A stretch of DNA of 58,765 nt from a virus (IMGVR_UViG_3300031754_000005:1-58765), one strand, 5' to 3'; counted from the stretch's first letter, positions 18,579-35,552 are shown. Numbers and translations are program-made. The notes: a model not told the origin generated them from the letters alone.

Positions 18579-18769
18579 CGCGCAGCTACACGATCGGCCC
18601 GGATTTCAGCACGATCACCTGCCGCTGGTGCGGGCTCACCAGCCACAATCTGCGCGATGTTGCCGAGCGCTATTGCGGGCGCTGCAACACTTTCCACGAC
18701 GATCTGCCGCCTCAAAACACCGCGCCGCCATCGCCCCCGAACGCAAACCCCTCCCAGCCGAGGGAATAA
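18575..18769 (+). CDS. Small zinc-finger protein on the opposite strand of the late operon
   Basis: The 64-residue product has ITCRWCGLTSHNLRDV then RYCGRCNTFHDDL: two CxxC knuckles and a C-terminal FHDD. This is a conserved small protein of alphaproteobacteria and their phages, of unknown function. GAAGG precedes the ATG. It is transcribed against the late operon, and its 3' end overlaps the adaptor paralogue by 58 bp, so it probably has its own promoter. Confidence 0.75.
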   Translation: MTRSYTIGPDFSTITCRWCGLTSHNLRDVAERYCGRCNTFHDDLPPQNTAPPSPPNANPSQPRE

Positions 18770-19596: not shown

Positions 19597-19597
19597 C

Positions 19598-20233
19598 TCA
19601 GCCTCGGTTCGCTTCGGCGGCGCCGGTTAATGCGGCCTCTTCCGCCCGTTCGATCTTCTCGACCGCCTCGCCCTCCCTGAGCGCACGCACCAGTTTTTCA
19701 CCGAGGCGCTTCACCACGAGCGAGACAAACGAGGCATCCCACAGGTTCGGGTCGGTGACCCGGCCGGTGTAGACCGCCAGCGCGCCCTTGAGGTTGGAGA
19801 GGATGACTTTCTGCTGCGCCGTCGCCGCGCCGTTGCGATCAATCAGCGAATTGTCGTTGTCGACGCGGAAGACCGCGGGCTTGGGATCGAGGTCGAACAT
19901 CGCCCCGGGCGGCGGGACGATCGCCTTCAGTTCGAGGCAATCGGCCGGGTAGCCGTACTGGTAGAGAAACCCCGGAGGGGGATATTGCGCCGACCACGGC
20001 TGTCCAGGGTTGTACCCGCCAGGCGGCGGCGGCCCCTTCAGGAGGGCGAGCGGGATATTGGCCCGCCGCGCCAGCGGAAAACCGCCGGCACGCAAGAGTT
20101 CGTCGCGCACCTGGCGGTAGACTTCCAGCGCCGCATCGGCCGCGCGCGTCCCCTCTTCGAGCGAGGCGATGCGCTCGGAATAGCCGATCTCGACAAGAGC
20201 CTGATTCACCAAATCTTCGGGCGCGACGGTCAT
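19598..20233 (-). CDS. Tail adaptor paralogue 3 (T7 gp11-like)
   Basis: The 211-residue product starts PEDLVNQALVEIGYSERI and has EVYRQVRDELLRAGGFPLA, LYQYGYPADCLELKAI and, near the end, LWDASFVSLVVKRLGEKLV, the shared adaptor blocks. It ends 1 bp before paralogue 4 starts. Confidence 0.78.
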   Translation of the reverse strand: MTVAPEDLVNQALVEIGYSERIASLEEGTRAADAALEVYRQVRDELLRAGGFPLARRANIPLALLKGPPPPGGYNPGQPWSAQYPPPGFLYQYGYPADCLELKAIVPPPGAMFDLDPKPAVFRVDNDNSLIDRNGAATAQQKVILSNLKGALAVYTGRVTDPNLWDASFVSLVVKRLGEKLVRALREGEAVEKIERAEEAALTGAAEANRG

Positions 20234-20234
20234 C

Positions 20235-20867
20235 TTACTGCCGCTGCGCCGCGGCTGCCGCGCGTGCCATCAATTCCGGCATCATCGGCCCGGTCATATC
20301 GCCGACATCGGCTGCTTCGCCGATCATCTGCTCGGCCATTCCGGCACGGGTGCGCGCGAGGTTGATGTCGTCGCGCAGGGCAAACGAGAAGAGCTTTGCC
20401 AGGAGCGCGACAAAGGCCTGGGTAAAAGCCGCGTTCCACGTCAGGGGGTCGGTGATCTGCGCATAGTAGCCGCAGACTGCGGCGGCCTGGTTGGTCGCGA
20501 TGACCTTGGCCGGGGTGCCGAGCGTCGAGTCGTTATAGGTCTTGAACCGCACCGGCTGCGGGTCGTTGTTCGGGTTCGGGATCGTGCCGTGGACATAGGC
20601 GATGCGCAGCGCGTCGGCCGGGTAGTTGTATTCCTGGCTGAACCCGAGAATTTTCGCGCCGCCGGCGGTCGGGGTCAGCGCCACCTCGCGAAACGAAAAA
20701 TCCCAGTCCTGCGATTGCAGGAGACCGTCGCGCGCCGGGCCGTAGACCTCGACCGCGACGCGCGAGGCGCGCGAGCCTTCGTAAATTTCAGCAATTGCGC
20801 GCGGGTAACCGCAGGCGCGCAATGCCGCATTGATGCAATCCTCGGGACTGGCATAACCGACCGCCAT
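20235..20867 (-). CDS. Tail adaptor paralogue 2 (T7 gp11-like)
   Basis: The 210-residue product has PEDCINAALRACGYPRAI, EVYGPARDGLLQSQDWDF, QEYNYPADALRIAYV and TWNAAFTQAFVALLAKLFSF, matching its neighbours block for block. ATG 20867 is chosen because GAGG lies 7 bases upstream; a GTG lies just before it. It ends 1 bp before the next copy starts. Confidence 0.78.
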   Translation of the reverse strand: MAVGYASPEDCINAALRACGYPRAIAEIYEGSRASRVAVEVYGPARDGLLQSQDWDFSFREVALTPTAGGAKILGFSQEYNYPADALRIAYVHGTIPNPNNDPQPVRFKTYNDSTLGTPAKVIATNQAAAVCGYYAQITDPLTWNAAFTQAFVALLAKLFSFALRDDINLARTRAGMAEQMIGEAADVGDMTGPMMPELMARAAAAAQRQ

Positions 20868-20890
20868 CACGTTACCTCAAATCGGTAAAA

Positions 20891-21448
20891 TCAGTTTTCG
20901 TCGACCAGTTCGGCGGTGTTGGCGTATTGCTCGGCCTCCGCCAGGAGCTCGCGGGCGAAGTCGGGCCGCCCAGCCAAGGCCATCGCGAGCGGATTGCTGA
21001 TCAGCCGCGCGACCGCCTCGATAAAGGCCGAGTCCCATTGGTTTTCGTTCGGCGTCGAGCTGGTGTAGACCGCGCTCGCATTTGCCTGGTTACTGACGAT
21101 GACCTTGGCCGCGAGCCCGTTGTCAAAGGCGAGCGCGCCGCGCACCGGCTGCGGATCGTTGACGTTGTAGCTGCCGGCCTGCGGGCGCAGCTGGCGCAGC
21201 CGCAGACAATCGGCCGGGTAGGTATATTCATGCGTCCACGGCGGGGGGATCGTGCCGCCCGCCGCGCTCAGCACATCGGTGCGCCGGGCAAAGGCCGGGT
21301 CGAGCCGGCGCAGCAGCAGGTTGACCGCCGGCGCGTAGATGACCTGGGCGGCGTTGCCGGCGACCGAGCCGTCGTTCAGTGCGGTGATCTGGACCTGGAC
21401 GCCCAGGAGCTCCAATGCTCTGTTTACGACGTCGGTCGAGGTTGGCAT
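20891..21448 (-). CDS. Tail adaptor paralogue 1 (T7 gp11-like)
   Basis: The 185-residue product has STDVVNRALELLGVQVQI, AVNLLLRRLDPAFARR, PPWTHEYTYPADCLRLRQL and QWDSAFIEAVARLISN. It is the first and shortest of four adjacent genes with the same block order. It follows a fibre-like gene with a 10-bp gap. Confidence 0.78.
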   Translation of the reverse strand: MPTSTDVVNRALELLGVQVQITALNDGSVAGNAAQVIYAPAVNLLLRRLDPAFARRTDVLSAAGGTIPPPWTHEYTYPADCLRLRQLRPQAGSYNVNDPQPVRGALAFDNGLAAKVIVSNQANASAVYTSSTPNENQWDSAFIEAVARLISNPLAMALAGRPDFARELLAEAEQYANTAELVDEN

Positions 21449-21458: not shown

Positions 21459-23363
21459 TCAGCAGTGGGTCACAATCCCATTCGTCACAGCATAGGAGCC
21501 GCCTGGCGCTCCTGCACACGTCACCCCCGCGATCCCGTTGGCGTAGTAAATTCCGGCTGCGTTGATCGTGCCGAGGCCCTTGTCGCCACCGGGCGGTGCG
21601 CCAAGCTGCAGCCCGGGGCCAAGAGCGGCAAGGGTCGTCGCGGCCGAGGCGCCGGTCTTTTGCAGCCAGCTAAAGCTCGGGGCGGCCAGGGTATCCGCAT
21701 TCCAGAAATTGACCGCGTGGTCGCCCGCAAAATGCTGCGTGATGGCGCTATGGAGCGTGCCCGAGGCGGGATAGATGCCAAAGTAGTTGCTTACTTCGAC
21801 AATGCCGTCTCCGCCGATACCGGCGCCGACCAGCAGAGCGTTGCTGAGCGTCGTCAGGCCGCTGGTGCTGAAGGACGCGATATTGGAGGCACCGCTGCCC
21901 AGTGTCTGAATCTGCAATGCGTTATCGATTGCAACCAATCTTGTACCATGGGCTTGATCGGTCACATCGCTGCGAATAGCAAACCCGGGAATATCGGAGC
22001 CGTCGTAAGTCCAACCGATTTCATATTGCCGCGGTATGTCGAGCACCATCGGTTCGGCCTGCGCGGTAAGAGAACCGGCGCCAAACACAATGCCGCGATT
22101 GGCGGTAGACCCGGTGCCGAAAGTCACATCGAACTTGGCGCCGGTGCCAGCACCACTCGACGACAACTGCGCAACCGGGCTGGAGGGATTGACGGTATAG
22201 GTCCCGGCGGTAGAGATCACCGCGCTGGTAACTATGCCGTTTGCGCCAACCGAAGTTACCCTCAGCACCCCGGCAACCGATGAAACGCCGCCCGCCAGAG
22301 TGATCGTGTCGTTCACCGCATAGCCGGTGCCGGCAGCGTTGACATCGCTGACGGATTGGAGTCCGGCGCCCTGCCCCTGATTGGTGATCCCGATAAAAGT
22401 CGTCAGCGAGTTCGGCGAGGAACCGCCGGCGCTCGTAACCAATTCGCCGCCCGCCCCAAGCCACAAGGCTGCGGTTGTTCCTGCATCGCCCAAATTATAA
22501 GGGCTGACGGTTATCGCATTGCCAAAGTTGGCGACCTCGATTTCAACACCGAGGACAGCGCCGGCCGAGGGATAGCGGGCGGCGGCATGATAGGCGCCTT
22601 CCGCCCCTAAACTGCTGTTGGCAATCCCGATCGTTGCAATGGGGAGACACGCAGCCTGGCTGAAACTTCCCCTCGCATCGCTTGAACGGCAGGCAAAGGC
22701 GCCGCCGATGCCGCCGATCGTGCTGTAGGATTCAAACTGGCTGTAGTCGTCGTAATAGAGGTATCCGCCGTTGGCGAATTTACCCAGCCAGGTCAGATCG
22801 TTCGGCAAATTGGTTGCGCTTTGTGCGCCGCCGACCAGGAGGCGGTCCCGTATGCTCCAGACATTTGCCGGTGGGATATTGGTCCAAAAACCGGCCGGTA
22901 CAGCGGGTGCATTTCTTGCAATGCTGTTCGACAGCAGCGTATTGGTGCACGCCGAGAGTGTGCCGTTGATCAGAAAATTGCAGGTCGGTGCCGCCCCGCC
23001 GCCGATGCTGTCGAGCGTGATGAGGCCGTTGCCGTTGCCGTCAAAGCCGAATTTGAATTCGCTGAAGGGGCCCGTCGCATACCCGCTGTAGAGCGCCAGC
23101 GACTGCCCGCTGTTAACCAGCGGCATCCCGGTCGGCAGCGTCCCGGGCTGATTGTTGTTGGCTGGCGCGCCGCCGGCCAGCGTCGGCCCGCCGGCATCCA
23201 GCACGCAGTTGCTGCCGGCATACATCAGGAGATGACCCGCCGTCAGCGCGCCGCAGTCGCGCAACGCGCCCTGCGCCCTTGCCGGGGCAAGCGGGAGCAG
23301 CATTGCGGGCGTTACCAGGACAAGAAAAAAGGCCGCCACGAGGGCGGCCCGAAAGCGGCGCAT
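21459..23363 (-). CDS. Fibre-like protein with a Sec signal peptide
   Basis: The 634-residue product begins with a classical signal peptide (MRRFRAALVAAFFLVLV through LAPARAQ). It continues into a Gly/Ser/Asn/Thr-rich beta-type body with fibre-like repeats (TLAGGVSSVAGVLRVTSVG, GVNDTI-type turns). The C-terminus (YYANGIAGVTCAGAPGGSYA) resembles the ends of tail fibres in alphaproteobacterial prophages. Export of a fibre before assembly is unexpected. A receptor-binding role is inferred from composition and position. Confidence 0.65.
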   Translation of the reverse strand: MRRFRAALVAAFFLVLVTPAMLLPLAPARAQGALRDCGALTAGHLLMYAGSNCVLDAGGPTLAGGAPANNNQPGTLPTGMPLVNSGQSLALYSGYATGPFSEFKFGFDGNGNGLITLDSIGGGAAPTCNFLINGTLSACTNTLLSNSIARNAPAVPAGFWTNIPPANVWSIRDRLLVGGAQSATNLPNDLTWLGKFANGGYLYYDDYSQFESYSTIGGIGGAFACRSSDARGSFSQAACLPIATIGIANSSLGAEGAYHAAARYPSAGAVLGVEIEVANFGNAITVSPYNLGDAGTTAALWLGAGGELVTSAGGSSPNSLTTFIGITNQGQGAGLQSVSDVNAAGTGYAVNDTITLAGGVSSVAGVLRVTSVGANGIVTSAVISTAGTYTVNPSSPVAQLSSSGAGTGAKFDVTFGTGSTANRGIVFGAGSLTAQAEPMVLDIPRQYEIGWTYDGSDIPGFAIRSDVTDQAHGTRLVAIDNALQIQTLGSGASNIASFSTSGLTTLSNALLVGAGIGGDGIVEVSNYFGIYPASGTLHSAITQHFAGDHAVNFWNADTLAAPSFSWLQKTGASAATTLAALGPGLQLGAPPGGDKGLGTINAAGIYYANGIAGVTCAGAPGGSYAVTNGIVTHC

Positions 23364-23432
23364 CAGCGCCTCCGGTTTATTGCGTGATTGCGGGTGAGGG
23401 GAGTGTGGGGCGGCCGATCGACAAAGCGCCGA

Positions 23433-23501
23433 TCAAGCCACGGCGATCAGCAGGAGCAGCAGGAAGAGGCCGGCATCGGCGAGCGAGACGACGATAAACA
23501 T
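23433..23501 (-). CDS. Tiny membrane peptide (22 residues)
   Basis: The peptide MFIVVSLADAGLFLLLLLIA plus two residues is almost entirely one membrane helix. GGAGG lies at good spacing before the ATG at 23501. It sits between a signal-anchored protein and a fibre gene. It could be a holin-accessory or regulatory peptide; the strong ribosome site is the main evidence. Confidence 0.5.
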   Translation of the reverse strand: MFIVVSLADAGLFLLLLLIAVA

Positions 23502-23530
23502 CGCCCGCCTCCGGTGTTGCTCCGGCGCGA

Positions 23531-23911
23531 TTATTTCGGCGCCGGCTCGGCTGCCGGCGGCTCCGGCGTCGGCGACACCGCGGCCGGTGCCGGCGTGGGG
23601 AGCCCGCAGGCCACTCGATCGCCACACCAGGCGGCAAAGCTCGCCTGCCACTCAGCCTCGCGCCTGGCGCGGGCCGCTCGCGCGTCCTGGTCAAAGGCGC
23701 GCAATTCGCTTTCGCGCAACGCGATCAGCGCTGCCTGCGCGGCGATTGTCTTGGCCGATACCTCGGGATGCGGGTCGCTCGGCACCTGCGGCACCTGCGC
23801 CGCGGGCGGCACCGCCTGGCTCCAGGCCGCCGGACCCAAGGTAACCAGGCCGAAAAGCAGCGCGGCGCTGAGCACAGCGAAGATCACGCCCTCTGAAATA
23901 ATCCTGCGCAT
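23531..23911 (-). CDS. Signal-anchored periplasmic helical protein, Rz-like candidate
   Basis: The 126-residue product has one N-terminal membrane segment (GVIFAVLSAALLFGLVTLG). Next come a Pro-rich stretch, a charged helix (SAKTIAAQAALIALRESELR through ARARREAEWQ) and a Pro-rich end. AGAGGAAAG precedes ATG 23911. The form suits an i-spanin or a membrane-tethered virion factor. The stop is TAA, one of the few in the window. Confidence 0.5.
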   Translation of the reverse strand: MRRIISEGVIFAVLSAALLFGLVTLGPAAWSQAVPPAAQVPQVPSDPHPEVSAKTIAAQAALIALRESELRAFDQDARAARARREAEWQASFAAWCGDRVACGLPTPAPAAVSPTPEPPAAEPAPK

Positions 23912-24006
23912 CGGTCTTTCCTCTCGCTGTTGCGCCATGGAATGGATCGTCAGTGCTGTAGCCGAACGCCATCCAGAAGAGGCGGCGCCGGCGAGTATTG
24001 CCGCCG

Positions 24007-26898
24007 CTAAAACGCCGACCCGAAGGCAAAGCGCGGATAGGTGTTCCAATCTGGCGTCCCTACCGAGTTCATCCGCGTGTTGGCATCGGTGATCAGTGCG
24101 TCGACCGCTGTCCCGTCGAGCGCGGTGATGCCCTGCGCCTTGAGGCGGTTCCACAGGGCGCGCCCGTTGGCGATGTAGGCGTTTGCGTTGTTGGCGCTGA
24201 CGACGCCCGTCGAGGTCACGCTGGTCGGTTGCGGCAGCACGTAGGCCGGCTGGAAGGCGGTGTTGAACGTGCCGCTGGTGTGGCAGCCGCTCGGCGTCGC
24301 CCCACTCGGTGGCGGCAGCGCAGCACCACCGACGGTCGCCGACAGGTCGAACGTGTAATTGCTGCCCCCGGTGTTGACCGTGTTCTTCAGGTAATACGGC
24401 GTGTCCGCCAGGTAGCCGCAGATCACGCCCTGGAAATTACCGTAGAGGAACTTGTCGCCATCGGTCGGCGTCCACCCGGTCGAGCTGGCGTTGGAGAGGC
24501 TGATCATCGGTGAGGATGCCGCCCAGGTAACCGGGCCGGGCACGGACGGCCCCCACTGCGCGTCGGACGAGATCATCGCATTGGCGTTCGACGCGCCCGT
24601 ATCGCTGCCGTTGACGTTGTGCTCGGTGTAGCCGTTGAGCGCCCAGCCGGAGAAGGTGGTCTGGTAATAGAGCCCCTTGGTCGCGAAGTTCTTCGCCCAG
24701 GTCTTGCAGTCGGCGTTGTTGTAAAGGTCCGCCGCCCAGGCGGCGATATGAGCGTTGTAGAAGAACTGCCAGCTTTCGCCCAGCAGCACGTCCTTGATGC
24801 TGTTGTCGCTGTTGAATTCCCCCATCGTCCAGTAGCCTTTGGCGATGGCGTAGGTGCCGAGGTTCGGCAGCGCCTGGTTGACCGGCCAACTGCAATTGGC
24901 CGCCGTCAGATCGTCGTACAGCTTGCCGATGTGCGACCCGTCGAAATAGGGATCTGGCGCCACCCGGCCGGCCAGCATCTCGCGGCGGAACGACCAGGCG
25001 GCATCGCGGTTCTCGGCGTCGCGCGCGGTAGCGATGCCGTAGGCGGCGACCGGATAGAGCGGGTTGCGGTGATTGGTCCCGCCGCCGACGTGCATCTGTC
25101 CGCCGAGTGCCGCCTCGATCCCGAGGTCGAGCACGAAGGCTTCGCCCGTCAGGAGATAGGCGTAGATAAAATTCTCGGAGCAGTGCGAGCAGTCGGCGTC
25201 GTCGAAGACGTACTGATAGGTGCTGGAGGGCGGCGGGGTCCACGAACCGTTTGGCCCCGGCCCAAAGCCGCTCCAGCGAAACTGTTGCTGGGCCGAGGAC
25301 GGCGCGGGCACCGGGTCGGTGCCGCCGGAATAGGTCGTGTTGGTCAGATTGGGATACTGCCGGGTCGCGTGGTCCCGGAAATTCATCCCGTCATGCACCT
25401 GCGACAGCGCGACCTGCCGCACCATCACGTCGTCAATCTGGTCCTGAATGTAGAAGTGACGCATCGCACCCGGCCAGAGCGGGCCGACATCGGCGTCGCC
25501 CGTGGTGTGGCGATCCGACGGCTGCGGGCCGATCGATGCCGAGTTCCACGCATAGGGCGCGCCGCCGTTGCAGGAACTGGCCTGCGCCACACACTCGTTG
25601 CTCGTCACGGTGCCGATCTGCGCAAGGTCGATCGGCCCCAGGACGTGCGACTTCTCCCAATAGGTCTGGTTGAACTTCGGCCTCAGGCGCGGGTCGGCGG
25701 CAATGCTGCCGGCGCCCTGGAAGAAGCGGCTGCGCACCGTCGTCGGGTCGGCGTCGACGATCGAGCCGAAATGCACGACGGCAAAAGCCGGGTTGAAGGT
25801 GTGCGTCCCGGTCCCGGCATCGCTCGGCGTCACCACGCCGCCGCCGATGCCATTGGTTCCGAAGGTCGCATTATGACTGGTGCTGCTGGAGACCGAGGCG
25901 AAGTAAAGCGTGTTTGCATCGAGCCCGGTCGGCAACGTGCCGGTGGTCGTCACGTAACCGGCGAGAATCTGATTGCCGGCCCCCACCTCGACGCCGAAAT
26001 AAAACGGATTGGTCGCGCCGGCCAGGACGAAGTTCGGTGATCCGCCCGTTGCGGTGAAAGTCGTCGCGGTCGGCAGCGTTGCGAAGTTTACCGTCGCCGT
26101 GCCGCTGCCGCCGGGGCCGACCGTCGTGTAGGAGATGGCGGAAAAGGCCCGGACGTTCTTGGCCGGCGTGTCGTAGTTGTACCACGGCTGGGTGATCCGG
26201 CCCCACTTCAGGAAGCCACCAAGAGCGCCCCCGGAGGCGGTCAATGCCGTGACGTACTCGTAATCCTCGAGCTGGCCGTGGGCCGTGCCGTCCTTGGTCG
26301 GCGACAGGTGGACGAGGTAGCGATCCTCGCGTCCGCACCCGCCGTCGAGCGTGTTGAACTGTTCGGCGTTGTTCGACCCCGATATTGTCGGGTCGTCGAG
26401 CCAGGCCCCCTCGTTGACGATGTTGGCGCCGGTGATCGGCGCGGCCGTCGCGTTGACGACGTAGTTCTGCGAATAGACCTCGGATCGTGCACGCGAGCCC
26501 GCCGCGGGCCACGAGCCGCCGGCCTGGATGTGAATTGTCGCGGAGGCGTTGTTGGCGGTGCTGGGAACCTTGCAAACCAGAAACATCGCCGTCATCAGGC
26601 TGCCGTCCTGCCCGGTCTCGTCCCAAGCGCGCTTTGCGCCCCAGGAATATGGCAGCACGTTGCCGCTGTCGTCCTTGAACACCGGCGCCTGACCGGACGG
26701 GATGTCGCCCTGCTTGAACGGGTGGGCGAAACGAACAAAGCCGTTGCCGATCGTGCTGCCGCTCTCGTTGACGACGGTCATCGTCGTCAGGTCACTGGGT
26801 GGGGTGCCATTGCTCCCACCACCACGAAGCAAGAAGGCATTGCCCGACCAGGGGGCAACAACAGCAGCAATAAAGACCAGTGCAGCGAGGGTGCGCAT
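24007..26898 (-). CDS. Large exported protein with a PcRGLX/YetA-like N-terminal domain, polysaccharide-degrading spike candidate
   Basis: The 963-residue product starts with a signal peptide (MRTLAALVFIAAVVAPWSGNA). Residues about 35-130 (TVVNESGSTIGNGFVRFAHP, FKQGDIPSGQAPVFKDDSGN, then DGSLMTAMFLVCKVP) resemble the N-terminal domain of exo-rhamnogalacturonan-lyase-like proteins. A long region with Trp, Tyr and Asp clusters and an alpha-helical-toroid feel (GEAFVLDLGIEAALGGQ, AAYGIATARDAENRDAAWSF) fits a glycan-active enzyme. A depolymerase-type spike is inferred; no catalytic residue is assigned. Confidence 0.6.
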   Translation of the reverse strand: MRTLAALVFIAAVVAPWSGNAFLLRGGGSNGTPPSDLTTMTVVNESGSTIGNGFVRFAHPFKQGDIPSGQAPVFKDDSGNVLPYSWGAKRAWDETGQDGSLMTAMFLVCKVPSTANNASATIHIQAGGSWPAAGSRARSEVYSQNYVVNATAAPITGANIVNEGAWLDDPTISGSNNAEQFNTLDGGCGREDRYLVHLSPTKDGTAHGQLEDYEYVTALTASGGALGGFLKWGRITQPWYNYDTPAKNVRAFSAISYTTVGPGGSGTATVNFATLPTATTFTATGGSPNFVLAGATNPFYFGVEVGAGNQILAGYVTTTGTLPTGLDANTLYFASVSSSTSHNATFGTNGIGGGVVTPSDAGTGTHTFNPAFAVVHFGSIVDADPTTVRSRFFQGAGSIAADPRLRPKFNQTYWEKSHVLGPIDLAQIGTVTSNECVAQASSCNGGAPYAWNSASIGPQPSDRHTTGDADVGPLWPGAMRHFYIQDQIDDVMVRQVALSQVHDGMNFRDHATRQYPNLTNTTYSGGTDPVPAPSSAQQQFRWSGFGPGPNGSWTPPPSSTYQYVFDDADCSHCSENFIYAYLLTGEAFVLDLGIEAALGGQMHVGGGTNHRNPLYPVAAYGIATARDAENRDAAWSFRREMLAGRVAPDPYFDGSHIGKLYDDLTAANCSWPVNQALPNLGTYAIAKGYWTMGEFNSDNSIKDVLLGESWQFFYNAHIAAWAADLYNNADCKTWAKNFATKGLYYQTTFSGWALNGYTEHNVNGSDTGASNANAMISSDAQWGPSVPGPVTWAASSPMISLSNASSTGWTPTDGDKFLYGNFQGVICGYLADTPYYLKNTVNTGGSNYTFDLSATVGGAALPPPSGATPSGCHTSGTFNTAFQPAYVLPQPTSVTSTGVVSANNANAYIANGRALWNRLKAQGITALDGTAVDALITDANTRMNSVGTPDWNTYPRFAFGSAF

Positions 26899-29640
26899 TT
26901 ATGACGTTTTTACCGAATAGAGCGAGCATGATCCGGTGTTGATGTTGCCGCTACTGGAATGGACGCGAAGACCCGTCACCGCATTGGTGTCGCCGGTATA
27001 GGTCCCGCCGATAGCAAGCATCTGGTAGATCGAGCCCTGGGTAAACCCATCGCTTATTCCAACAACATCATGATACACGGCCCCTACCAAATTAAAGAGA
27101 TCCCATCTTCCTGAAGTTCCTCTCGTAGTCGCCATCTGGCCAACGCGAGCCAGCGGGATACCGCTGTCGCTATTCGAGCCGAGATCGACGGCGGTGCCGC
27201 CGTTCTGCATCCCCGGCCCGTTCCACGCGTAATTCGCGGTCTGATAGGTAGGTGTCCCGCCGGTGCCGAATTGCAGGTAGAGCGTGACGGCGCTCGTCGC
27301 CGTGATCAGATTGCGACAGCGCAACTCGTAATCGGTCCCGGTAAGTGCCCCCGAGGTCGAGCTATCGAATATCAAGTCCGTCGCGGTATTGCTGGCGGTT
27401 TGCGTCGAGATGAAGGTTGTCGCACCCCCGCCGCTAGCGGTCTGATATGTCGGGTCAGCGGCCGCGCCATTGCTGGTCAAAACCTGCCCAGCCGTGCCCG
27501 CCGCCGTGGCATTGATCCCCGAGCCGGTGCCGAGAAGGATGCCGTGGTTGGTATAGGTGCCGGTGGTGATGCCGTAATATTCGTCGACGACGATGACGCC
27601 GGCATTGCCGGCAAGCCCCGCCGTTGCGCCCGCGCCAGCCGTGCCGGCTGCACCGACCGTATAGGTGTACGTCGCCCCGGGCGTGACGATGATCTGCTGC
27701 AAACACTCGCCGCCGCCGCCGCCGCCCGAGCCGCCAGTCAACACCGAGGCGCTGTTGACGCCGTTTGCGCCCGCGCCATTGTTGCTCGCCGTCGCGGCCT
27801 GGAAGGCGCCGAGAAAGCTGTCGCCGCCGACGCCGCCCGCCACTTGGGCGATCGCACCGACCACATTGCCGCCATCGCCAGCATCCCCGCCGGTGATGCG
27901 GAACCCGCCGGTGCCGAGCGCGCCGGTGCCGCCCTGACCGCCGACCCCGCCGGTGCCGCCGGTGGTCGAGGTGGTGCCGGTGCCGCCGGTGCCGCCGATC
28001 GCGGTGACGCTATTGAAGGTCGTCGTACCGCCGGTGCCGCCGGTGCCAGCGCCGGCCCCGAGGCCGCCCGAGCCAGCACCCGCGCCGCATTGCGTGACGA
28101 TCAGCTTATTAGCGTTGGCGGGCGTCGTATAGGTCGCCGCTGATCCGGTCGTGAAGCGCTGCCGGGTCAGCGCCTGCGAGGTTCCTCCGCCCCCCGATGA
28201 ACCACAAGAAAATGCGTCGCTCGACTGCGTGTAGTTGAGATGGCTGCCGCCGGTATCGGTGCAGTCCGGCACGACCTTGTAGGTGCTGGCACCGGCAACG
28301 TCGACCGGGATGGCGTGGCTCGCAGCACCGGTGCCGAGCTGGGCCACCGAGGCTGCGCCGGACAGATCGGTGAACGCCGGCTGCGAGGCGTGCGGCACCC
28401 CGGCGACGATGCTGTCGAGAAAATTGTGCGATACGGCCGCCAGCGACAGCCCGACGCCGTACACCGTCGTTGAGGAAACCACCGACCCGGGTTGCCAGTC
28501 GAGCGTGGAACCATTGGAGAGCAAACAGCCGCCCAAACCCGGCAGGATAGACAGGCTGGTTCCCGTCACCCCGCCGGGGAAGTTGATCGTCGGCGTGCTC
28601 GACAGGGTGATTGTCCCGGTGCCCTGGTTCTGGTAGCAGGCGAACATCCCATTGGCGAAGATCGTCGCGCTGATCGCCGGGGCGGTGAGCGTCCACCCGG
28701 TGCCGGTCAGATTGACCGTGCCGCCCATGTCCCCCGCCGCGAAGGGATAGTTGGCCGACTTCGTGCTGTCGGGAACGCCGGGGAGATCGGCAGCAGCAAG
28801 CGCACGGAAGGTCGGATTAGCGGCGCTGCCCGAGGACGGCCCGGATAATACGGTGTTGGCCGTCTGGGTCCCGAGCGCGGTCCCGAGGTTTGTCGCCGTC
28901 GGCGTGCCGAGGAATGTCGCGACGCTCGTGCCGAGGCCGCTTACATCGCTCCCGATCCGCACCGTGCAGGTGTTGTTCGCACAGACGATCGTCTTGTTGG
29001 TCAGCGTCTCGGTGCCGGCCAGGGTTGAAAGCGTCTTGTTTGTGCCATCGGACGGTGGGCCGGTGATGACTGTCGTGCCGCTCGGCGCCGGATACTTCCA
29101 ACTGGTGATCGCGGCGCCGGCCTGGATATCGCACTGAAAACCGCCGGCATTGGGAACAAAGCAGCCGATACCGTGATCTGCTGTGGTGCCCGAGGTCGTG
29201 TTGAACCCAGCCCAAAGGTACGGGCTCGCGTTCGCTGCGATCAGCGGCAGCAGAACAGCGGTGCTGTTGAGATAGCTGCCCGTGCCGGTGCTGTTCAGTG
29301 TCAGCGAACCGAAAGCGAGATTGTCGGTTACCGCGCCGATCGTATAGGTCGAACCAAGCGACATCGCGCCCGGCGCGCTCAGCCCGACCCCCGCTCCGGC
29401 ATTGAGGGTGATGCTGCTGCTGCCGCCGCCGACAGCCGGAATCCATTTTGTCAGCGCGGCATTATAGGTCAGCACCAGGCCGTCGGTCGGCGCGTGGACG
29501 CCCGTCACCGCGACATCGCTGAGGGTTGAGAGACTGCCGGCGCCGCCCTGGAGTTGCGCGCGGGCGGCATTGGGCGCGAGCAGCAGAAATACCGCCAGCG
29601 CCGCGACAGCCAGAATTTGCCGCGTGGGGCTAGCTCGCAT
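26899..29640 (-). CDS. Glycine-rich fibre protein with a Sec signal peptide
   Basis: The 913-residue product has a signal peptide (MRASPTRQILAVAALAVFLL through NAARAQ), a beta-rich body and a Gly/Thr-rich region near residues 500-600 (GGTGGTTTFNSVTAIGGTGG type). A C-terminal domain (LYLQFGTGGTPTYQ, SGIPLARVGQMATTRG) looks receptor-binding. ATG 29640 lies inside the end of the upstream gene with GAGG 9-10 bases before it. It is the largest fibre candidate. Confidence 0.68.
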   Translation of the reverse strand: MRASPTRQILAVAALAVFLLLAPNAARAQLQGGAGSLSTLSDVAVTGVHAPTDGLVLTYNAALTKWIPAVGGGSSSITLNAGAGVGLSAPGAMSLGSTYTIGAVTDNLAFGSLTLNSTGTGSYLNSTAVLLPLIAANASPYLWAGFNTTSGTTADHGIGCFVPNAGGFQCDIQAGAAITSWKYPAPSGTTVITGPPSDGTNKTLSTLAGTETLTNKTIVCANNTCTVRIGSDVSGLGTSVATFLGTPTATNLGTALGTQTANTVLSGPSSGSAANPTFRALAAADLPGVPDSTKSANYPFAAGDMGGTVNLTGTGWTLTAPAISATIFANGMFACYQNQGTGTITLSSTPTINFPGGVTGTSLSILPGLGGCLLSNGSTLDWQPGSVVSSTTVYGVGLSLAAVSHNFLDSIVAGVPHASQPAFTDLSGAASVAQLGTGAASHAIPVDVAGASTYKVVPDCTDTGGSHLNYTQSSDAFSCGSSGGGGTSQALTRQRFTTGSAATYTTPANANKLIVTQCGAGAGSGGLGAGAGTGGTGGTTTFNSVTAIGGTGGTGTTSTTGGTGGVGGQGGTGALGTGGFRITGGDAGDGGNVVGAIAQVAGGVGGDSFLGAFQAATASNNGAGANGVNSASVLTGGSGGGGGGECLQQIIVTPGATYTYTVGAAGTAGAGATAGLAGNAGVIVVDEYYGITTGTYTNHGILLGTGSGINATAAGTAGQVLTSNGAAADPTYQTASGGGATTFISTQTASNTATDLIFDSSTSGALTGTDYELRCRNLITATSAVTLYLQFGTGGTPTYQTANYAWNGPGMQNGGTAVDLGSNSDSGIPLARVGQMATTRGTSGRWDLFNLVGAVYHDVVGISDGFTQGSIYQMLAIGGTYTGDTNAVTGLRVHSSSGNINTGSCSLYSVKTS

Positions 29641-30298
29641 CTTCCTCGGCCTCGATTTCGATATCGAAAACCGCGCCGGTCGGGAGCGCCGCGCCATTCA
29701 TGTTGAGATAAAGAAAATCGAGGGCGCCGCGCAGGACGCAGGCGTTGCGGTCGAAGAGCCAGACCAGATCGGTGGCCGCGACGCCCGAGCCGGCGGCGGC
29801 GAGCTGCACCCGCCCGGCTCCCGCCAAGCCGCCGACCTGCGCCCCGAGCGACCCCGGATTGGCGGTGCCGATCGTCGAGACGACCGCCGTTGCCGCGGCG
29901 TAACTGGTGTCGGCTTTGAAGGCGGTGAGGGCGGTGCGCACGAGGCTTGTCGTGTCGGCGACCGAGCGGCGAACGAGCTGCGCCGGCATGTTGCCCGCGG
30001 CGGTCGCGACCCCGCCCACCTTGATGCGGCGGATCCGGATCGTCTTTGTGGCGCTGCCCTGGATCTCGAGGACATCGGTCGGCGTCGCGACCGCCGCAAA
30101 TCCGAGGACCGCATAACGGTAGCCGGGTTTCAACCCCTCCGAAGAGACCGGCAGCGCGACAAGGCCGGGTGCGAGCGTGAATTTGTTGCCGAGCTGGTCG
30201 GCTGGAACGACAGAGGGCGCCCAGTTGCCGCCGACGGCGTTGATGTCCATCGAATAGGGGGCGCCGTTCTTGTCGGTGACGAGAAACGGGCTGCTCAT
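29630..30298 (-). CDS. Structural protein, decoration or fibre-base candidate
   Basis: The 222-residue product is beta-rich (PGYRYAVLGFAAVATPTDVL, KTIRIRRIKVGGVATAAG) with an acidic C-terminus (FDIEIEAEEDAS). It ends 11 bp inside the next gene. The pattern is seen in virion proteins encoded beside fibre genes of alphaproteobacterial phages; its exact role is unknown. Confidence 0.6.
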   Translation of the reverse strand: MSSPFLVTDKNGAPYSMDINAVGGNWAPSVVPADQLGNKFTLAPGLVALPVSSEGLKPGYRYAVLGFAAVATPTDVLEIQGSATKTIRIRRIKVGGVATAAGNMPAQLVRRSVADTTSLVRTALTAFKADTSYAAATAVVSTIGTANPGSLGAQVGGLAGAGRVQLAAAGSGVAATDLVWLFDRNACVLRGALDFLYLNMNGAALPTGAVFDIEIEAEEDAS

Positions 30299-30302
30299 CG
30301 GC

Positions 30303-30515
30303 TCAGAACCCCAGGATCAGCGGATAAAAGGGATTGCTCGGCGGGGCGGGAAAAACCTGTGCGCCGATCGGCGTTCGCGGGAGGCAGAAGAGGCAGTAAA
30401 TCGCGCCGGCGCTCGTCTGGTCCGGCACTCCGGCCAGCCCCTGTTGGGTCACGCCAGCGGCGGCGGAGATGCCGGGCGATTGCTGCGGCTGCGGGGTAAC
30501 CCTGCCGCGGTTCAT
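30303..30515 (-). CDS. Small hypothetical protein
   Basis: The 70-residue Pro/Gln-rich product has CLFCLP and a hydrophobic C-terminus (NPFYPLILGF). It starts 4 bp upstream of the next gene, with a modest GGGGGCG site. It could be a short virion component. Confidence 0.5.
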   Translation of the reverse strand: MNRGRVTPQPQQSPGISAAAGVTQQGLAGVPDQTSAGAIYCLFCLPRTPIGAQVFPAPPSNPFYPLILGF

Positions 30516-30547
30516 CGGCGCCCCCGCAATTCGCTCCGGCAGAATCG

Positions 30548-30577
30548 AAAGCGCCCGCCCCGACCGGCGGGCGCTTT
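30548..30577. terminator. Strong bidirectional terminator-like hairpin
   Basis: AAAGCGCCCGCC (30548-30559) and GGCGGGCGCTTT (30566-30577) form a perfect 12-bp stem with a 6-base loop and A/T ends on both sides. It lies between an Ig-like gene and the fibre block and may reduce fibre-gene expression relative to capsid genes. Confidence 0.65.
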
Positions 30578-30617
30578 GATCGGGCGCCCTATCTAGGGCG
30601 TAAATAGGGCCTGGTTT

Positions 30618-30977
30618 TTAGGGGCCGGGAGCGGTCGGCGCCGGCTGCTGGGTGAGGCTGGCGGGGCCGAGAGTGATGTCGCCCGGGGCGGCCGGCACCG
30701 GATAGTCCACGGTGAGATCGACCGCCACATCGCCCGTGGAGTCGGTCACTTCGACCTTGATCCCGAGCGTGTTGGCATCGGGGAGCGTCGCGGCCTTGAC
30801 GACGAGTTCAGGGCTGCCATCGGCGGCGGCGTTGACCGTAGCCAAGACGGCCGGGCTGGTGGATGTGGCGGTGAACACTTCCCCAGCGGGGAGCGGTTCG
30901 GTTTGGCCGGTGGCCGGATCGACGATGGAGAGAGGCCACGTGTAGACATCGGTCGGCTTCAAGGTGATCGTGATCAT
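30618..30977 (-). CDS. Ig-like decoration-type protein
   Basis: The 119-residue product reads as one beta-sandwich: ITITLKPTDVYTWPLSIVD, PAVLATVNAAADGSPELVV, TLGIKVEVTDSTGDVAVDL, then a Pro-rich tail. Such bacterial Ig-like domains decorate capsids and tails. It starts in an ATGA overlap with the preceding gene. Confidence 0.6.
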   Translation of the reverse strand: MITITLKPTDVYTWPLSIVDPATGQTEPLPAGEVFTATSTSPAVLATVNAAADGSPELVVKAATLPDANTLGIKVEVTDSTGDVAVDLTVDYPVPAAPGDITLGPASLTQQPAPTAPGP

Positions 30978-31390
30978 GGGCCGGCTCCTCTTGGTGCGGG
31001 TTGCGTGCTGACGACCATATGGTCGACATCGAGGACTATCGCACGGCGGCGCGGCCGGTCGAGAGTCGCGTCAATCACCTCTTCGACCACCTCCTCGATC
31101 ACGGCTTCGATCTTTGCGTGGTGCGCGCCGACCTGGTGGAGGAGGAGCCATACCGTCTCGCCGGCCCGGCGGAAGACGCCATCGTGAAACGCGGCGGCGA
31201 GGAGGTGATAGGGCAGCGGCTCTTCATCGGGGTCGCCCGACGGCGGCGGTGCGCCGGGAGCGCCGATCGTGCCGGTGCCGTCCGCCGGGTTGCCGGTGCC
31301 GTTCAAACGCTCGATGTGGGTTTGCTTCCCGTATTCGCTCTTATCGCGCAGCGCATTCGGCACGGTGGATCCCGGCCTCGCATCACTCAT
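30974..31390 (-). CDS. Hypothetical structural-module protein
   Basis: The 138-residue product has a hydrophilic N-terminus and a central helical part (LLAAAFHDGVFRRAGETVWL) ending in the acidic helix KIEAVIEEVVEEVIDATLDR. It starts 8 bp inside the capsid-staple gene. No family recognised. Confidence 0.55.
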   Translation of the reverse strand: MSDARPGSTVPNALRDKSEYGKQTHIERLNGTGNPADGTGTIGAPGAPPPSGDPDEEPLPYHLLAAAFHDGVFRRAGETVWLLLHQVGAHHAKIEAVIEEVVEEVIDATLDRPRRRAIVLDVDHMVVSTQPAPRGAGP

Positions 31391-31673
31391 CGTCGTCGTC
31401 CTCGTCGTTTTCGAGGCGCAGCTTCTCGATCTGAATTTCGACGCGCTGCCCGCTGCCGTCGTCCGAGACGCTGGTGACGCAGCCAAAGCAGCGCAGATCG
31501 ATCTCGTCGCCGACCTTTGGCAGCGGCAGTTGCGCCTTTTCGAGTTCGCGGCCGGTCAGGCAAATGCGCGTGCCGTAGGGATACTGGGGCTTCTCAGCGA
31601 TGGCTGGGCTCGCCTGGTCCGCCATCTCCTCATCATCGTATTCGAGGTTGATCAGCGGCCCCCATTTCGCCAT
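31383..31673 (-). CDS. Capsid staple protein-like
   Basis: The 96-residue product shows QYPYGTRICLTGRELEKAQL, PLPKVGDEIDL, then CVTSVSDDGSGQRVEIQI and a very acidic end (ENDEDDDDE). The order YP-G-RI-L, LPKVGD, VTSVS, R-VEIQI is typical of capsid staple proteins that lock neighbouring capsomers. The start is in a TGATG overlap with the His-rich gene. Confidence 0.7.
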   Translation of the reverse strand: MAKWGPLINLEYDDEEMADQASPAIAEKPQYPYGTRICLTGRELEKAQLPLPKVGDEIDLRCFGCVTSVSDDGSGQRVEIQIEKLRLENDEDDDDE

Positions 31674-32203
31674 CACGCGCCTCCCGCGGCGGCCATCGCC
31701 GGCGCCGGCGGTTCGGGTGCCGGCGCACCGGCCGCGCCGGCTGGGCCCGCGCCCGCGCCTGCGGCGCCGAGCAACTCCGCCTCATGCTTCATATTGAGGG
31801 TGTGGCGCTCGTGGTGGTGGCGCTCGGCCATGTCCTTGTGGCGCTTCTCATGGTCGCCGACGAGGCCGTGCTTTTCGTGCTCGTGGGTGCGGTGCAACCC
31901 GACGGTCGCGGCATGGTCGGTCATGCCCGCGTGTTCGCTCTCGTGCCGCGCATCCATCGAGCGGTGTTCGTCGCGCTGGCGGTTGTGCTCGTTGCGCCGC
32001 TGACCCTCGTGCTCGACGCGCAACCCCTCGCGCTCGCCGGCGTGCCGCTTCAGCATCTCGCCGCCGCTGGAAGGCGTGTCGCCGCCCGCCTTGTGTGCCG
32101 CGGGCTTGCCGGCGGTGCGCTTCTCGCGGGCGCTCGTCATCTCCGGCGAATCGTAGAGGTCCTCGCCGCGCGACTTCTTCGCCGGCTTTTTTTCGTCGGC
32201 CAT
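31673..32203 (-). CDS. Histidine/glutamate-rich coiled protein
   Basis: The 176-residue product has a Lys-rich N-terminus and a central region of about 95 residues with alternating His, Glu and Arg (HNRQRDEHRSMDARHESEH, HRTHEHEKHGLVGDHEKRH, then HHHERH). An Ala/Pro-rich tail follows. GGAGGG lies 8 bases before the ATG. The region should be a long charged helix able to bind metal. Its role in the virion or assembly is unknown; the gene sits with capsid-accessory genes. Confidence 0.6.
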   Translation of the reverse strand: MADEKKPAKKSRGEDLYDSPEMTSAREKRTAGKPAAHKAGGDTPSSGGEMLKRHAGEREGLRVEHEGQRRNEHNRQRDEHRSMDARHESEHAGMTDHAATVGLHRTHEHEKHGLVGDHEKRHKDMAERHHHERHTLNMKHEAELLGAAGAGAGPAGAAGAPAPEPPAPAMAAAGGA

Positions 32204-32459
32204 CAAGGCCCTCCGTGTGCTAAGGGAATGCCGCTGCGGCGGCGCGTGAGCGTAGGGAAACCAGCGGTCGTAAAGTTTACCGGCAGCCGTTTTTACCGCG
32301 ATCGAGCCGGCATCGGTTGCGGGAGGCAAGCCGCGGGAACAGCCGAGTGCGCATCAAGGCTGGCGACCAAGCCCGGTAGGACCCTCCCCGTGTGGTGCTG
32401 GCTGTAATCGGGAACGTCGCAGCAAATTGGTCAGGCGGATGCTATGCTGGCTCTCGAGT

Positions 32460-32549
32460 GCCCGTGTGGCGAAACTGGTAGACGCGGAGGGCTTTAAACC
32501 CCGCCTGCCCCGCAAGGGCTTGTCGGTTCGAATCCGACCACGGGCACCA
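32460..32549 (+). tRNA. Type II tRNA of leucine form, apparent anticodon UUA
   Basis: The acceptor stem GCCCGTG/CACGGGC is perfect. The D-arm is Leu-like (GGCGAAACTGGTAGACGC), the T-arm is canonical (GTCGG, TTCGAAT, CCGAC), a long variable arm has a GCCC/GGGC stem, and CCA is encoded. Counting against leucine tRNAs places the loop CTTTAAA at 32492-32498, so the anticodon is TTA (32494-32496), which would read UAA. Only three of five anticodon-stem pairs form (G-G and A-C at the outer end). A one-base shift would give TAA (Leu), but with a worse stem. It lies alone, opposite to the late genes. Confidence 0.8.
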
Positions 32550-32552
32550 ATT

Positions 32553-32861
32553 TTAAGCGCAGCGCCCGTAGCCCTCTTCAAAGGCGCGGCGCGGGCTGAT
32601 CGAGCGGTAGCCGTCGCGATAAAATAAGAGGAAATCGCCGGCGATCGGCATGTAGCGCCGCACCAGAATGCTCTCGACCAGCATCGGGGCAAATCCGCTG
32701 TCCTCAGCGAACGACAGAACCACGCCGCCATCGGCGCGCGGCTCAATCTTGGCAATCCTCAACGCCCAGACTTCCTTGTGCGACTTGTAGCGCGGCGGTG
32801 TCGAGGTGCCCCCCGCGGTCGTCGGCAGATCCGGGCCGGCGTCAATCACAGCAGCCTCCAT
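32553..32861 (-). CDS. Conserved small phage protein (KSHKEVWAL type)
   Basis: The 102-residue product has KSHKEVWALRIAKIEP, then LVRRYMPIAGDFLLFYRDGY and SISPRRAFEEGY. This pattern recurs in small proteins of capsid modules in many proteobacterial phages, with unknown function. ATG 32861 is used; AGGGCGAG lies upstream. It overlaps the neighbouring gene by 20 bp. Confidence 0.65.
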   Translation of the reverse strand: MEAAVIDAGPDLPTTAGGTSTPPRYKSHKEVWALRIAKIEPRADGGVVLSFAEDSGFAPMLVESILVRRYMPIAGDFLLFYRDGYRSISPRRAFEEGYGRCA

Positions 32862-33129
32862 CGCACTCGCCCTGGCCGCCGAGGCATTTGCAGCGCCGGG
32901 CGAACTCCTCGGCGACTTCGCGGGCGGCCGAGCCGGCCCGCGGCGGGCGCAGCGGCAATATGCCGGAGAGGCCCGGCCCGACATTGCCGAGGCGGCGTTT
33001 TGCTGCGGCATCGATATTGCCCGCCCCGCCGCAGGTGCCGCAGATTTCAGCCCCGAGCCGCACCAGCGTGTCGACCGCCCTGTCGCGCGGCACGAGGCCG
33101 CCCTTGCACGCCGGGTTTGGGCATTTCAT
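32842..33129 (-). CDS. Cysteine-rich zinc-binding small protein
   Basis: The 95-residue product has CPNPAC, CGTCGGAG and a terminal cluster CKCLGGQGECDGGCCD, ten Cys in total, suggesting two or more zinc sites of the DnaJ-like CxxCxG type. It overlaps the downstream gene by 20 bp and the upstream gene by 4 bp. Function unknown. Confidence 0.6.
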   Translation of the reverse strand: MKCPNPACKGGLVPRDRAVDTLVRLGAEICGTCGGAGNIDAAAKRRLGNVGPGLSGILPLRPPRAGSAAREVAEEFARRCKCLGGQGECDGGCCD

Positions 33130-33368
33130 CGGGATGCTTTCGAAGACGGATGGTCGTAAAACCCGCCGTGGTGCCAGCTTGCCATCGTCTTGGCGCGAGC
33201 CGCATCGCGGCGAATCGCGGGATTGCTCGATCCCGCCGCCGCGGCGAGCCGGCTCTGTGGGATTTTCTGCCCCTCGGGCACGCCGAGCTCGCGGTGCAAT
33301 TTTCCCTTGGAGCCGCCCGGGTGGAATTCGGCTTTTGGTATCCAGCCCTTTGGCTTTTTCTCCGCCAT
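33126..33368 (-). CDS. Small basic protein with C-terminal HGGFYDHPSS tag
   Basis: The 80-residue product has GWIPKAEFHPGGSKGKLHRE, GQKIPQSRLAAAAGS and ends ASWHHGGFYDHPSSKASR. GGAG lies 10 bases before the ATG. The FHPGGSKGKLHRELG core is known from small phage proteins of this region. The C-terminal tag is shared with the gene at 33410-33604. Confidence 0.68.
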   Translation of the reverse strand: MAEKKPKGWIPKAEFHPGGSKGKLHRELGVPEGQKIPQSRLAAAAGSSNPAIRRDAARAKTMASWHHGGFYDHPSSKASR

Positions 33369-33409
33369 CCCGGTGCTCCGTGACGCGAGGTCGAGCAAAT
33401 TGGGCGAGG

Positions 33410-33604
33410 TCAACGCTTTGCGCTCGATGGATGGTCGTAGAAACCGCCGTGCTTCGTGCGCTGCGGTTTGCCGTCCTTGACCCGCTCGGGCAATTTGCCG
33501 CCCGGATCGGCGTCCGCGAATTCCTTCGCGGCGCGGCCTTCCTTGGTCGGCTTGTCCTTGTTGGCAAAGGCCCAGCGCCGCTGCGCCTGCGAGACGTCCG
33601 GCAT
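33410..33604 (-). CDS. Small phage protein (MPDVSQAQRRWAFAN type) with the same C-terminal tag
   Basis: The 64-residue product starts MPDVSQAQRRWAFANKDKP, a widespread small phage pattern, then GGKLPERVKDGKP and ends KHGGFYDHPSSAKR. The tag matches that of the neighbouring unrelated protein at both protein and DNA level, although the N-terminal parts differ. Confidence 0.68.
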   Translation of the reverse strand: MPDVSQAQRRWAFANKDKPTKEGRAAKEFADADPGGKLPERVKDGKPQRTKHGGFYDHPSSAKR

Positions 33605-33607
33605 CGA

Positions 33608-34930
33608 CTACAGCTCGGCCGATGCCTGGATATTGGCCCCGCCGCCGGCGCCGACCAGCTGGCAGGCAAATCCTGCGGTCGTCGAAGCCGTCGTTGCCTG
33701 CAATGCGATCGTGTCGATGGTGTTGCCGATGACCGCATCCTGAATGAGGTAGGTCGAGGCCAGCACAACGGGCGTCACGGTCTTCGACAGGACGGCCCAG
33801 GTCGAGGTCGACTCGGCGGTGCCGCCGATGGTGATCGTCGGCGCGACCCGCATCGTCACCGGCAATTTGATCGCAACATCGCAGATCGTCGCGGTCATGT
33901 AGGCGCCGCCCTGGCTGACGATCTTGGAAGCGGCCGGCTCGACGATCTCGTAGAAATAGCGCTGCTGGAGGATCGTCTCGATCGCCTGGCTGCGCCGCTC
34001 GAAGGCGCTGCAGTTGACCTGACTGTTCGATTGGTTGTCGCAGGAATAGCCGGCCGTGGCGTTCGCCGTCAGCGCCGGGTTGCGCACCAGCGCGATGTTG
34101 CTGAAGGCGATGTAATCGTTGGTGCCGGCGGTGCCGACCGGCGTCCAGCACAAGGCAACGGCGATTTCGGTGGCGCCGGCGGGGATCTTGCCGACCGCCG
34201 CATAGCGGCCCAGCGAGGAGACGCCGCCAAGATTGATGACGGCCGCGGTCGCGTTGGCCTGGCCGGTCCAGCCACCCGAGCCGCCGCCGCCGGCATTAAG
34301 CCCGAACGCCACCGAGGCAGAGCCGGCGACACCCTCATCGGTGCCGGTCCCGGTGATGATGTAGGCCGTCATGTTGGCACCGGCGCCGGAGAAATTCGCC
34401 CCGGTCGCGGCGTGGAAATCGAGTTCGGCGTTCTGCCCCTGGAACTGATAGGCCTGTGCGCTTTCGACTTCCTGCAGCATGCACACCTGCACGACGCCGG
34501 TCTGGCCCGAGGTCCGGGCCATCTTGAAGGCGTATTTCGCGCCGGTCGGCAAGTCGCCCGCGGTCGAGTCGCGGCTGAGCGTCATCGCCGTCGAAGCGCC
34601 CGACCAATAGGCCCAGCGGTCGGGGCCGCCATAGGCGACGGTCGTCGTCTGGCTGGCCCCGGTCGTCGCGCGCTGGAAAAGGTTGGTCGTGGCATCGCCG
34701 CCGATCAGCGCATTCGACTTCCACGGCTGGCCGCCGACATAGCCGGCGAATTTCTGTGCCGTGGCGTAGTAGTTGCCGACGCCGATCGCGCCGTTCGGCA
34801 GATCCTGGATCAGGTCCGCGTCATTGAGCATCGATACCTGTGGCGGCGGATAGGTCTGCGCCAGCGCCGCCGCGGCGACAGCGAGCGCGGCGCAGACAAT
34901 CGTCGCGGCAAGCGGAATAAAACGCTTCAT
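33608..34930 (-). CDS. Exported virion-type protein (fibre or carbohydrate-binding-like)
   Basis: The 440-residue product begins with a signal peptide (MKRFIPLAATIVCAALAVAAAALAQ, cleavage near AQT, shown here only to mark the segment at residues 1-25). The body is beta-rich (DRWAYWSGASTAMTLSRD, YAFKMARTSGQTGVVQVCML) and resembles carbohydrate-binding modules fused to phage fibres. The late ERRSQAIETILQQRYFYEI pattern is frequent near fibre C-termini. Position between capsid and fibre genes supports a virion role. Confidence 0.62.
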   Translation of the reverse strand: MKRFIPLAATIVCAALAVAAAALAQTYPPPQVSMLNDADLIQDLPNGAIGVGNYYATAQKFAGYVGGQPWKSNALIGGDATTNLFQRATTGASQTTTVAYGGPDRWAYWSGASTAMTLSRDSTAGDLPTGAKYAFKMARTSGQTGVVQVCMLQEVESAQAYQFQGQNAELDFHAATGANFSGAGANMTAYIITGTGTDEGVAGSASVAFGLNAGGGGSGGWTGQANATAAVINLGGVSSLGRYAAVGKIPAGATEIAVALCWTPVGTAGTNDYIAFSNIALVRNPALTANATAGYSCDNQSNSQVNCSAFERRSQAIETILQQRYFYEIVEPAASKIVSQGGAYMTATICDVAIKLPVTMRVAPTITIGGTAESTSTWAVLSKTVTPVVLASTYLIQDAVIGNTIDTIALQATTASTTAGFACQLVGAGGGANIQASAEL

Positions 34931-34994
34931 CGATGAAGCTCCTGAAAAAGGGGCGAAAAGGATCGCGGGCGAGCCCGGGCGGCGCGGCGGCGGC

Positions 34995-35552
34995 CTAGTA
35001 AAGCGGTCGGCAGAACGCGCGGATATCCGCGGTGGCGGCGGCGCCCTGCGCGGTCGTGAGATTGAAGTAAATCACCGGCAGATCGAGCGCGTTGGTTGCG
35101 CCCGCCGTGGCGATTGTCGCGCTCATCGCGCTGCCGGCCGCATCGTTGGCCGCCGAGGTCAATGTGGAATAGGCCTGCGTCGCCGCCACGAGCGCGACGC
35201 CGCCCTGGGCCGCTGCGGTATAGAACCCGCCCGCCGCTGTGGTCAGCGAGAGGCTGGCGTTGTTGATCGTGATCGCGTCCAGCATGTAGAGCGCGGAAGG
35301 CGCCGAAATCGGGATCGCCTGGTCGGCGCTCGCCGAATTGAAATTGGCGCCGGCGAGCTTGCCGCACTGGACACGCGCCGGGGCGTAGGATTGCCAAGGC
35401 GTCGTCGGGAATTGAAAGCCGGGCGAGACGCCGGGCGCCGCCTGCGCGCCATCGAGCATTGCGGCCAGCATGACCGGCAAACCCGCCAGCGCCAGGCCGA
35501 GAGCGAAGGAGAGGGCGGCCGGCAGCAGCCGCCGCCGCAAGGTATGTTTCAC
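34995..35552 (-). CDS. Exported protein with long signal segment
   Basis: The 185-residue product has a basic N-terminus (MKHTLRRRLLPAALS), a long hydrophobic stretch with a possible cleavage near AQAAPG, and a beta-rich Ala/Thr body (ASLSLTTAAGGFYTAAAQGG) with two Cys. It is the second of two adjacent exported genes. Family not recognised. Confidence 0.55.
   Translation of the reverse strand: MKHTLRRRLLPAALSFALGLALAGLPVMLAAMLDGAQAAPGVSPGFQFPTTPWQSYAPARVQCGKLAGANFNSASADQAIPISAPSALYMLDAITINNASLSLTTAAGGFYTAAAQGGVALVAATQAYSTLTSAANDAAGSAMSATIATAGATNALDLPVIYFNLTTAQGAAATADIRAFCRPLY

Follow-up and report, generated by a model that had tools for sequence, protein, structure and literature searches.

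Predicted Sec leaders on fibre-type phage proteins and a candidate two-compartment route of virion building

A 58,765-base IMG/VR virus contig (here called the window, meaning the whole stretch of DNA analysed) encodes fibre-, spike- and decoration-type proteins that begin with predicted Sec signal peptides. Export of the fibre and spike proteins is strongly supported by sequence evidence. These proteins probably leave the cytoplasm and are not joined to the virus until the cell bursts. We rate as slightly better than even the chance that the window represents a tailed-phage lineage with two-compartment virion building, in which heads and tail tubes would be made in the cytoplasm and disulfide-bonded receptor-binding fibres in the periplasm, to be joined only at lysis.

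By gene content, the window virus is a podovirus. Its minus-strand operon runs from terminase, portal (matching phrog_332), scaffold-position protein and major capsid protein, through a decoration/fibre block, to four tail-tubular-A-like genes, tail tubular B and the internal virion proteins, one of which is transglycosylase-type. An integrase-like ORF was spotted by eye at the right edge. Isolates with related capsids include phages of Pseudomonas, Salmonella, Xanthomonas, Bordetella and Caulobacter, all at <60% and the best at about 40% identity, and the best reading is a BPP-1-related podovirus of Rhizobiales-type bacteria. The tail-tubular-A-like genes (18712-21448) stand in tandem, four against the one annotated in BPP-1-type isolates. 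Proteins are named below by their first coordinate and relatives' loci, mostly metagenomic contigs, by L numbers. Three families were compared: A4, a small decoration/knob domain; A5, the 33608-type family; and A6, the fibre N-domain at the 21459 position (consensus AFGQxxxLQGGxWTxGHxPMY...DSGPAGGG). The features are as follows.

15179-18268, minus strand: tail tubular B (phrog_376, E=3.5e-140), without leader
18712-21448, minus strand: four tail-tubular-A-like genes, without leader (context)
21459-23363, minus strand: tail-fibre-type protein with leader, 634 aa, 8 Cys in mature part, score 17.1; in the position of the A6-like N-domain, directly upstream of the tail-tubular genes
23274-23363, minus strand: predicted signal peptide of 21459, cut after ARA before Gln, placed via homologues
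23531-23911, minus strand: sixth leader protein, 126 aa, 2 Cys, short helical-looking mature part, score 14.1; upstream sequence AGAGGAAA; between 21459 and 24007
24007-26898, minus strand: leader-bearing protein with no recognised fold, 963 aa, 10 Cys in mature part, score 13.3
26836-26898, minus strand: predicted signal peptide of 24007, cut after GNA
26899-29640, minus strand: fibre-type protein with leader, 913 aa from the preferred start, 12 Cys in mature part, score 17.0; ribosome site
29557-29640, minus strand: predicted signal peptide of 26899, cut after ARA before Gln
33608-34930, minus strand: tail fibre protein with leader, 440 aa, A5 family, 6 Cys in mature part, score 16.6; phrog_4492 tail fibre, E=1e-11
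34859-34930, minus strand: predicted signal peptide of 33608, cut after ALA before Gln
34995-35552, minus strand: small decoration-type protein with leader, 185 aa, 2 Cys, GTG start, score 15.6
35439-35552, minus strand: predicted signal peptide of 34995, cut after AQA
37776-38825, minus strand: major capsid protein (phrog_212, E=3e-55), without leader; clade marker

Leaders were detected with a rule-based Sec/signal peptidase I score, calibrated on 314 chance ORFs (at least 60 aa) from the same DNA. The first-pass annotation had assigned Sec leaders to five products (21459, 24007, 26899, 33608 and 34995). All five ORFs are present on the minus strand at the coordinates it gave, open with an n-region, an h-region and an AxA-type cleavage site, and score 13.3-17.1, compared with a chance maximum of 12.4. 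It had overlooked the sixth leader protein (23531-23911). Of the remaining window proteins, only a 75-aa membrane-protein-like ORF (4169-4396) exceeds 12.5. No leader was detected by rule score in the capsid, scaffold, portal, four tail-tubular-A-like, tail-tubular B and internal virion proteins of the window, so that the structural neighbours do lack signal peptides, as had been claimed. In four related isolates, none of 76 structural or adjacent CDS scored 10 or more; among genes sampled from the Rhizobium host, 12.6% scored at least 12.5. The leader proteins have the positive n-region, hydrophobic core and AxA-type site of Sec/signal peptidase I substrates and no later membrane segment, and we regard the predicted leaders on the five window proteins as real. 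For 21459, the rule alone puts the cut two residues earlier than the homologues do. The leader of 26899 stood, and its start was moved: 29640 is more probable than 29697, because a ribosome site is found at the former and the latter overlaps the upstream gene.

Wider scans yielded 80 loci with A4, 70 with A6 and 27 with A5. The leader was kept in 56 of 57 distinct A5 homologues (55 strong, one weak) and in 72 of 73 distinct A6 homologues (67 strong, four weak, one with an ambiguous start), the sole A6 exception being truncated by a contig edge. A seemingly leaderless A5-domain paralogue in L207/L208 was excluded as a partial match. Distinct A4 homologues comprised 20 with a leader, 48 without, and 15 occurring as internal domains. 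Hence, the question whether homologues start past the hydrophobic segment, which the first-pass annotation had raised as a check, is answered no for A5 and A6 and yes for these 48 A4 proteins. A4 domains work leaderless in many phages, which is a counterpoint to the proposed mechanism and implies that export is not required for the A4 fold. One A4 homologue (L036:12797-13102) starts just beyond the relatives' leader cleavage point, with an in-frame stop just upstream, and would represent gain or loss of a leader inside the clade.

Ribosome sites of at least four bases preceded the leader start in 51 of 55 A5 and 36 of 67 A6 genes, and followed the leader in four of 55 and five of 67, respectively. 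In most homologues Gln follows the predicted cut, and the conserved domain begins right after it. Loci with 59-74% capsid identity carry leaders on genes of the same block, whereas at 46-51% identity the genes of the fibre block mostly have none. Hallmark genes of the same podovirus group were present in 59 of 66 A6 loci, which indicates that the leader is a lineage trait.

Protein 33608 shares 54% identity with leader-bearing L011:14144-15457 and was also aligned with 10 leader-bearing homologues. Similarly, 34995 shares 52% identity with leader-bearing L011:13562-14065, and L002:8757-9263 likewise has a leader. The leader and first 135 aa of 21459 are common to L002:13191-15188 (40%). Although too divergent to be picked up by the A6 HMM, 21459 is counted in A6 on the basis of this alignment and its gene position. 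Its residues 324-419 gave a weak head-decoration/Hoc-type match, and tblastn against 50,697 phage records found mainly a repeat-type domain common to Hoc/SGNH proteins. Both 21459-23363 and L036:16548-17039 end in the motif C..(S/Y)..VNGIVTHC, with Cys as the final residue, possibly a disulfide-closed end. For 26899 there was no Pfam match, and tblastn against the same records gave only a weak 54-aa match. For 24007 no relative was found in Pfam, PDB, phage records or viral contigs, and neither 24007 nor 26899 had informative relatives among the sequences compared. Exact-pattern scans with 34995 and 24007 retrieved no relatives. A tblastn search of the 50,697 records with 24007, 33608, 34995 and two relatives' fibre sequences gave no match; the null is weak for one of the relatives' queries, which was two L036 pieces joined. 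The idea that 24007 is a secreted polysaccharide lyase was dropped, as nothing in Pfam or PDB matched.

Proteins that form disulfides tend toward even Cys numbers. The mature parts of all five window proteins have even counts (8, 10, 12, 6 and 2 for 21459, 24007, 26899, 33608 and 34995, respectively); one additional Cys of 33608 sits inside its leader. In the leader-bearing clade, 33 leader proteins have an even and one an odd number, compared with 83 even and 57 odd among leaderless proteins, and Cys is twice as abundant in leader proteins. To keep relatives from being counted repeatedly, A6 fibres were sorted into clusters according to their bodies. Even counts over the whole mature protein were found in 28 of 31 A6 clusters (p=2e-6); among leaderless proteins encoded at the same loci, the figure was 39 of 78 clusters (Fisher p=5e-5). 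This count was the second version; in the first, restricted to sequence beyond residue 150, parity was weaker (20 of 30 even), presumably because bonds cross this arbitrary cut. Parity in A5 was perfect (54 of 54), but these are not independent events, as the two conserved Cys columns (43/44 and 41/44) are homologous. The cleanest comparison is A4, one domain occurring with and without a leader: exactly two Cys were present in 17 of 20 leader-bearing members and none in three, whereas the 48 leaderless members had none (26), one (19), two (2) or three (1). The Cys are thus even in number and conserved, as expected of exported proteins with the predicted disulfide bonds, and the counts are independent evidence for the predicted export.

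Sequence and fold comparisons point to the A5 and A6 families as fibre/spike proteins. Among 46 A6 members, the bodies gave matches to PHROGs of tail fibres and spikes, to pectate-lyase-like, beta-helix, tail collar and endosialidase extension domains and to the Mtd second domain, each type in one to five members. The solved folds nearest to an A5 model (pLDDT 87) are the Pseudomonas phage Pa223 capsid spike and the CBA120 TSP4 tailspike (E about 5e-4, TM-score only about 0.4), a likeness at the level of the fold. Fibre- or spike-related bodies were therefore found for 33608, the A6 relatives and the A5 fold. The earlier description of the leader proteins as fibre or decoration type applies in general and does not extend to 24007, which has no match and may not be a fibre. 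The end of a leader-bearing A6 fibre (L185:5306-7042) resembles, by eye, an S74-type intramolecular chaperone.

Rhizobial prophages were found through capsid alignment. The prophage of Rhizobium sp. BK313, with 61% capsid identity, was examined from terminase to a 1744-aa internal virion protein and has the same gene order as the window. The sole large fibre-like gene in this stretch encodes a leader-bearing A6 protein of 767 aa, whose end matches the A5 domain. Its structural module contains no leaderless fibre fit for the receptor-binding role. A first genome scan for relatives found none, a weak null as the query was again the two joined L036 pieces, and an A6 search of 397 genomes in the host's order brought up nothing beyond the known prophage and a single weak, broken match. 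BPP-1 (bbp9/Mtd), AF (gp19) and Tr60_Ab31 (gp17) have capsid and tail-tube genes related to those of the window virus, and an Mtd second domain occurs in one A6 member. In these isolates, leaderless fibres follow the internal virion protein, whereas the window fibres have leaders and lie between the capsid and tail-tubular genes. A fibre module of the BPP-1 type was found in neither the window nor BK313: no fibre gene was recognised after the internal virion protein in either. Mtd, bbp9, AF gp19, Tr60 gp17 and the Jess A tail protein, from four isolate relatives, are all leaderless, which agrees with the expectation of the first-pass annotation that tailed-phage fibres are not exported.

In the mechanism that we propose, fibre, spike and decoration proteins would be synthesised with cleavable leaders and pass through Sec into the periplasm. 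There signal peptidase I would remove the leader, mostly exposing Gln at +1, and disulfide bonds would form. Since heads and tail tubes have no leaders and would be assembled in the cytoplasm, the halves of the particle could meet only once the inner membrane opens. Lysis would then bring finished fibres and fibreless particles together, and the conserved N-terminal domains would dock the fibres onto virions. We infer this attachment to virions, as well as the cleavage, the periplasmic oxidation and the timing at or after lysis. Taken as a whole, exported, cleaved and oxidised fibres meeting cytoplasmic virions at lysis offer the best explanation, and a fairly probable one. If true, the two compartments would keep finished fibres apart from particles until release, and fibres would perhaps act at the host surface beforehand.

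Exported proteins might instead stay free of the virion, as soluble depolymerases or adhesins from infected or lysogenic cells, or as a receptor-masking coat that blocks superinfection. Release outside the cytoplasm, one of the options first raised for these proteins, is supported by the leaders, their conservation and the paired Cys, and this evidence fits free proteins equally well. Moreover, a low-confidence model of the 33608 body (pLDDT 59; a hint only) resembles carbohydrate-binding modules, and weak O-antigen-ligase-like membrane proteins adjoin A5 in some relatives, hinting at surface modification. We nevertheless consider free action unlikely, because the leader genes sit inside the structural operon, and joining exchangeable bodies (fibre, spike, Mtd-type) to one conserved N-domain is how virion fibres are built. 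Free action would also mean that the BK313 prophage has no identified receptor-binding protein; as its structural module has no leaderless candidate, a virion role is favoured. Less likely still, the hydrophobic segments could remain uncleaved and tether fibres to the inner membrane, providing a platform for assembly. The positive start and long hydrophobic core are anchor-like, but the permanent anchor suggested at first loses ground to the cleavable AxA motifs with conserved Gln at +1, the conserved domain directly past the cut, the paired Cys in the mature parts, and a later membrane segment in only one of 142 leader proteins. Mimicry of signal peptides by alanine-rich, GC-rich proteins is largely refuted and extremely improbable: the window's 67% GC does bring many alanines, and 23 of the 314 chance ORFs have weak leader-like starts, but none matches the five window scores, and composition explains neither conservation, ribosome sites nor Cys pairing.

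The usual view is that both the folding of tail fibres and their attachment take place in the cytoplasm. The coat proteins of filamentous phages are virion proteins that cross the inner membrane with cleavable leaders, as predicted for the fibres here; these phages assemble in the membrane and exit without lysis, whereas the window virus, a tailed dsDNA phage, has capsid genes of the cytoplasmic kind. Tailed phages route endolysins via the host Sec system (fOg44 Lys44, SAR endolysins and Ms6 LysA; PMC6116005), which are wall-acting lysis enzymes, unlike virion fibres. In the literature searched, with sparse coverage of subscription papers, we found no report of exported tail fibres and no precedent for fibre attachment after lysis. 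If true, a clade-wide fibre export leader would amount to a novel way of assembling tailed phages and would explain how disulfide-rich fibres get made. The combination of leader, Gln and conserved N-domain may also serve as a marker for receptor-binding proteins of rhizobial phages, mostly unrecognised by Pfam and NCBIfam.

Two further kinds of gene were seen beside these families. At L002:9748-10902, L006:8605-9759, L007:5778-6854 and L010:14824-16089, the gene after A5 encodes a multi-pass membrane protein; the L010 copy has a weak Wzy_C O-antigen ligase match (E=5e-5, below the cut-off), and the L002 and L007 copies weakly match DUF2079. A role in changing the cell surface, or even in glycosylating exported fibres, is possible. 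Furthermore, small leader proteins with a short, helical-looking mature part adjoin A6 fibres in the window (23531-23911) and in L036:20250-20501, L094:10798-11073 and L154:5672-5926, and are possible periplasmic fibre chaperones.
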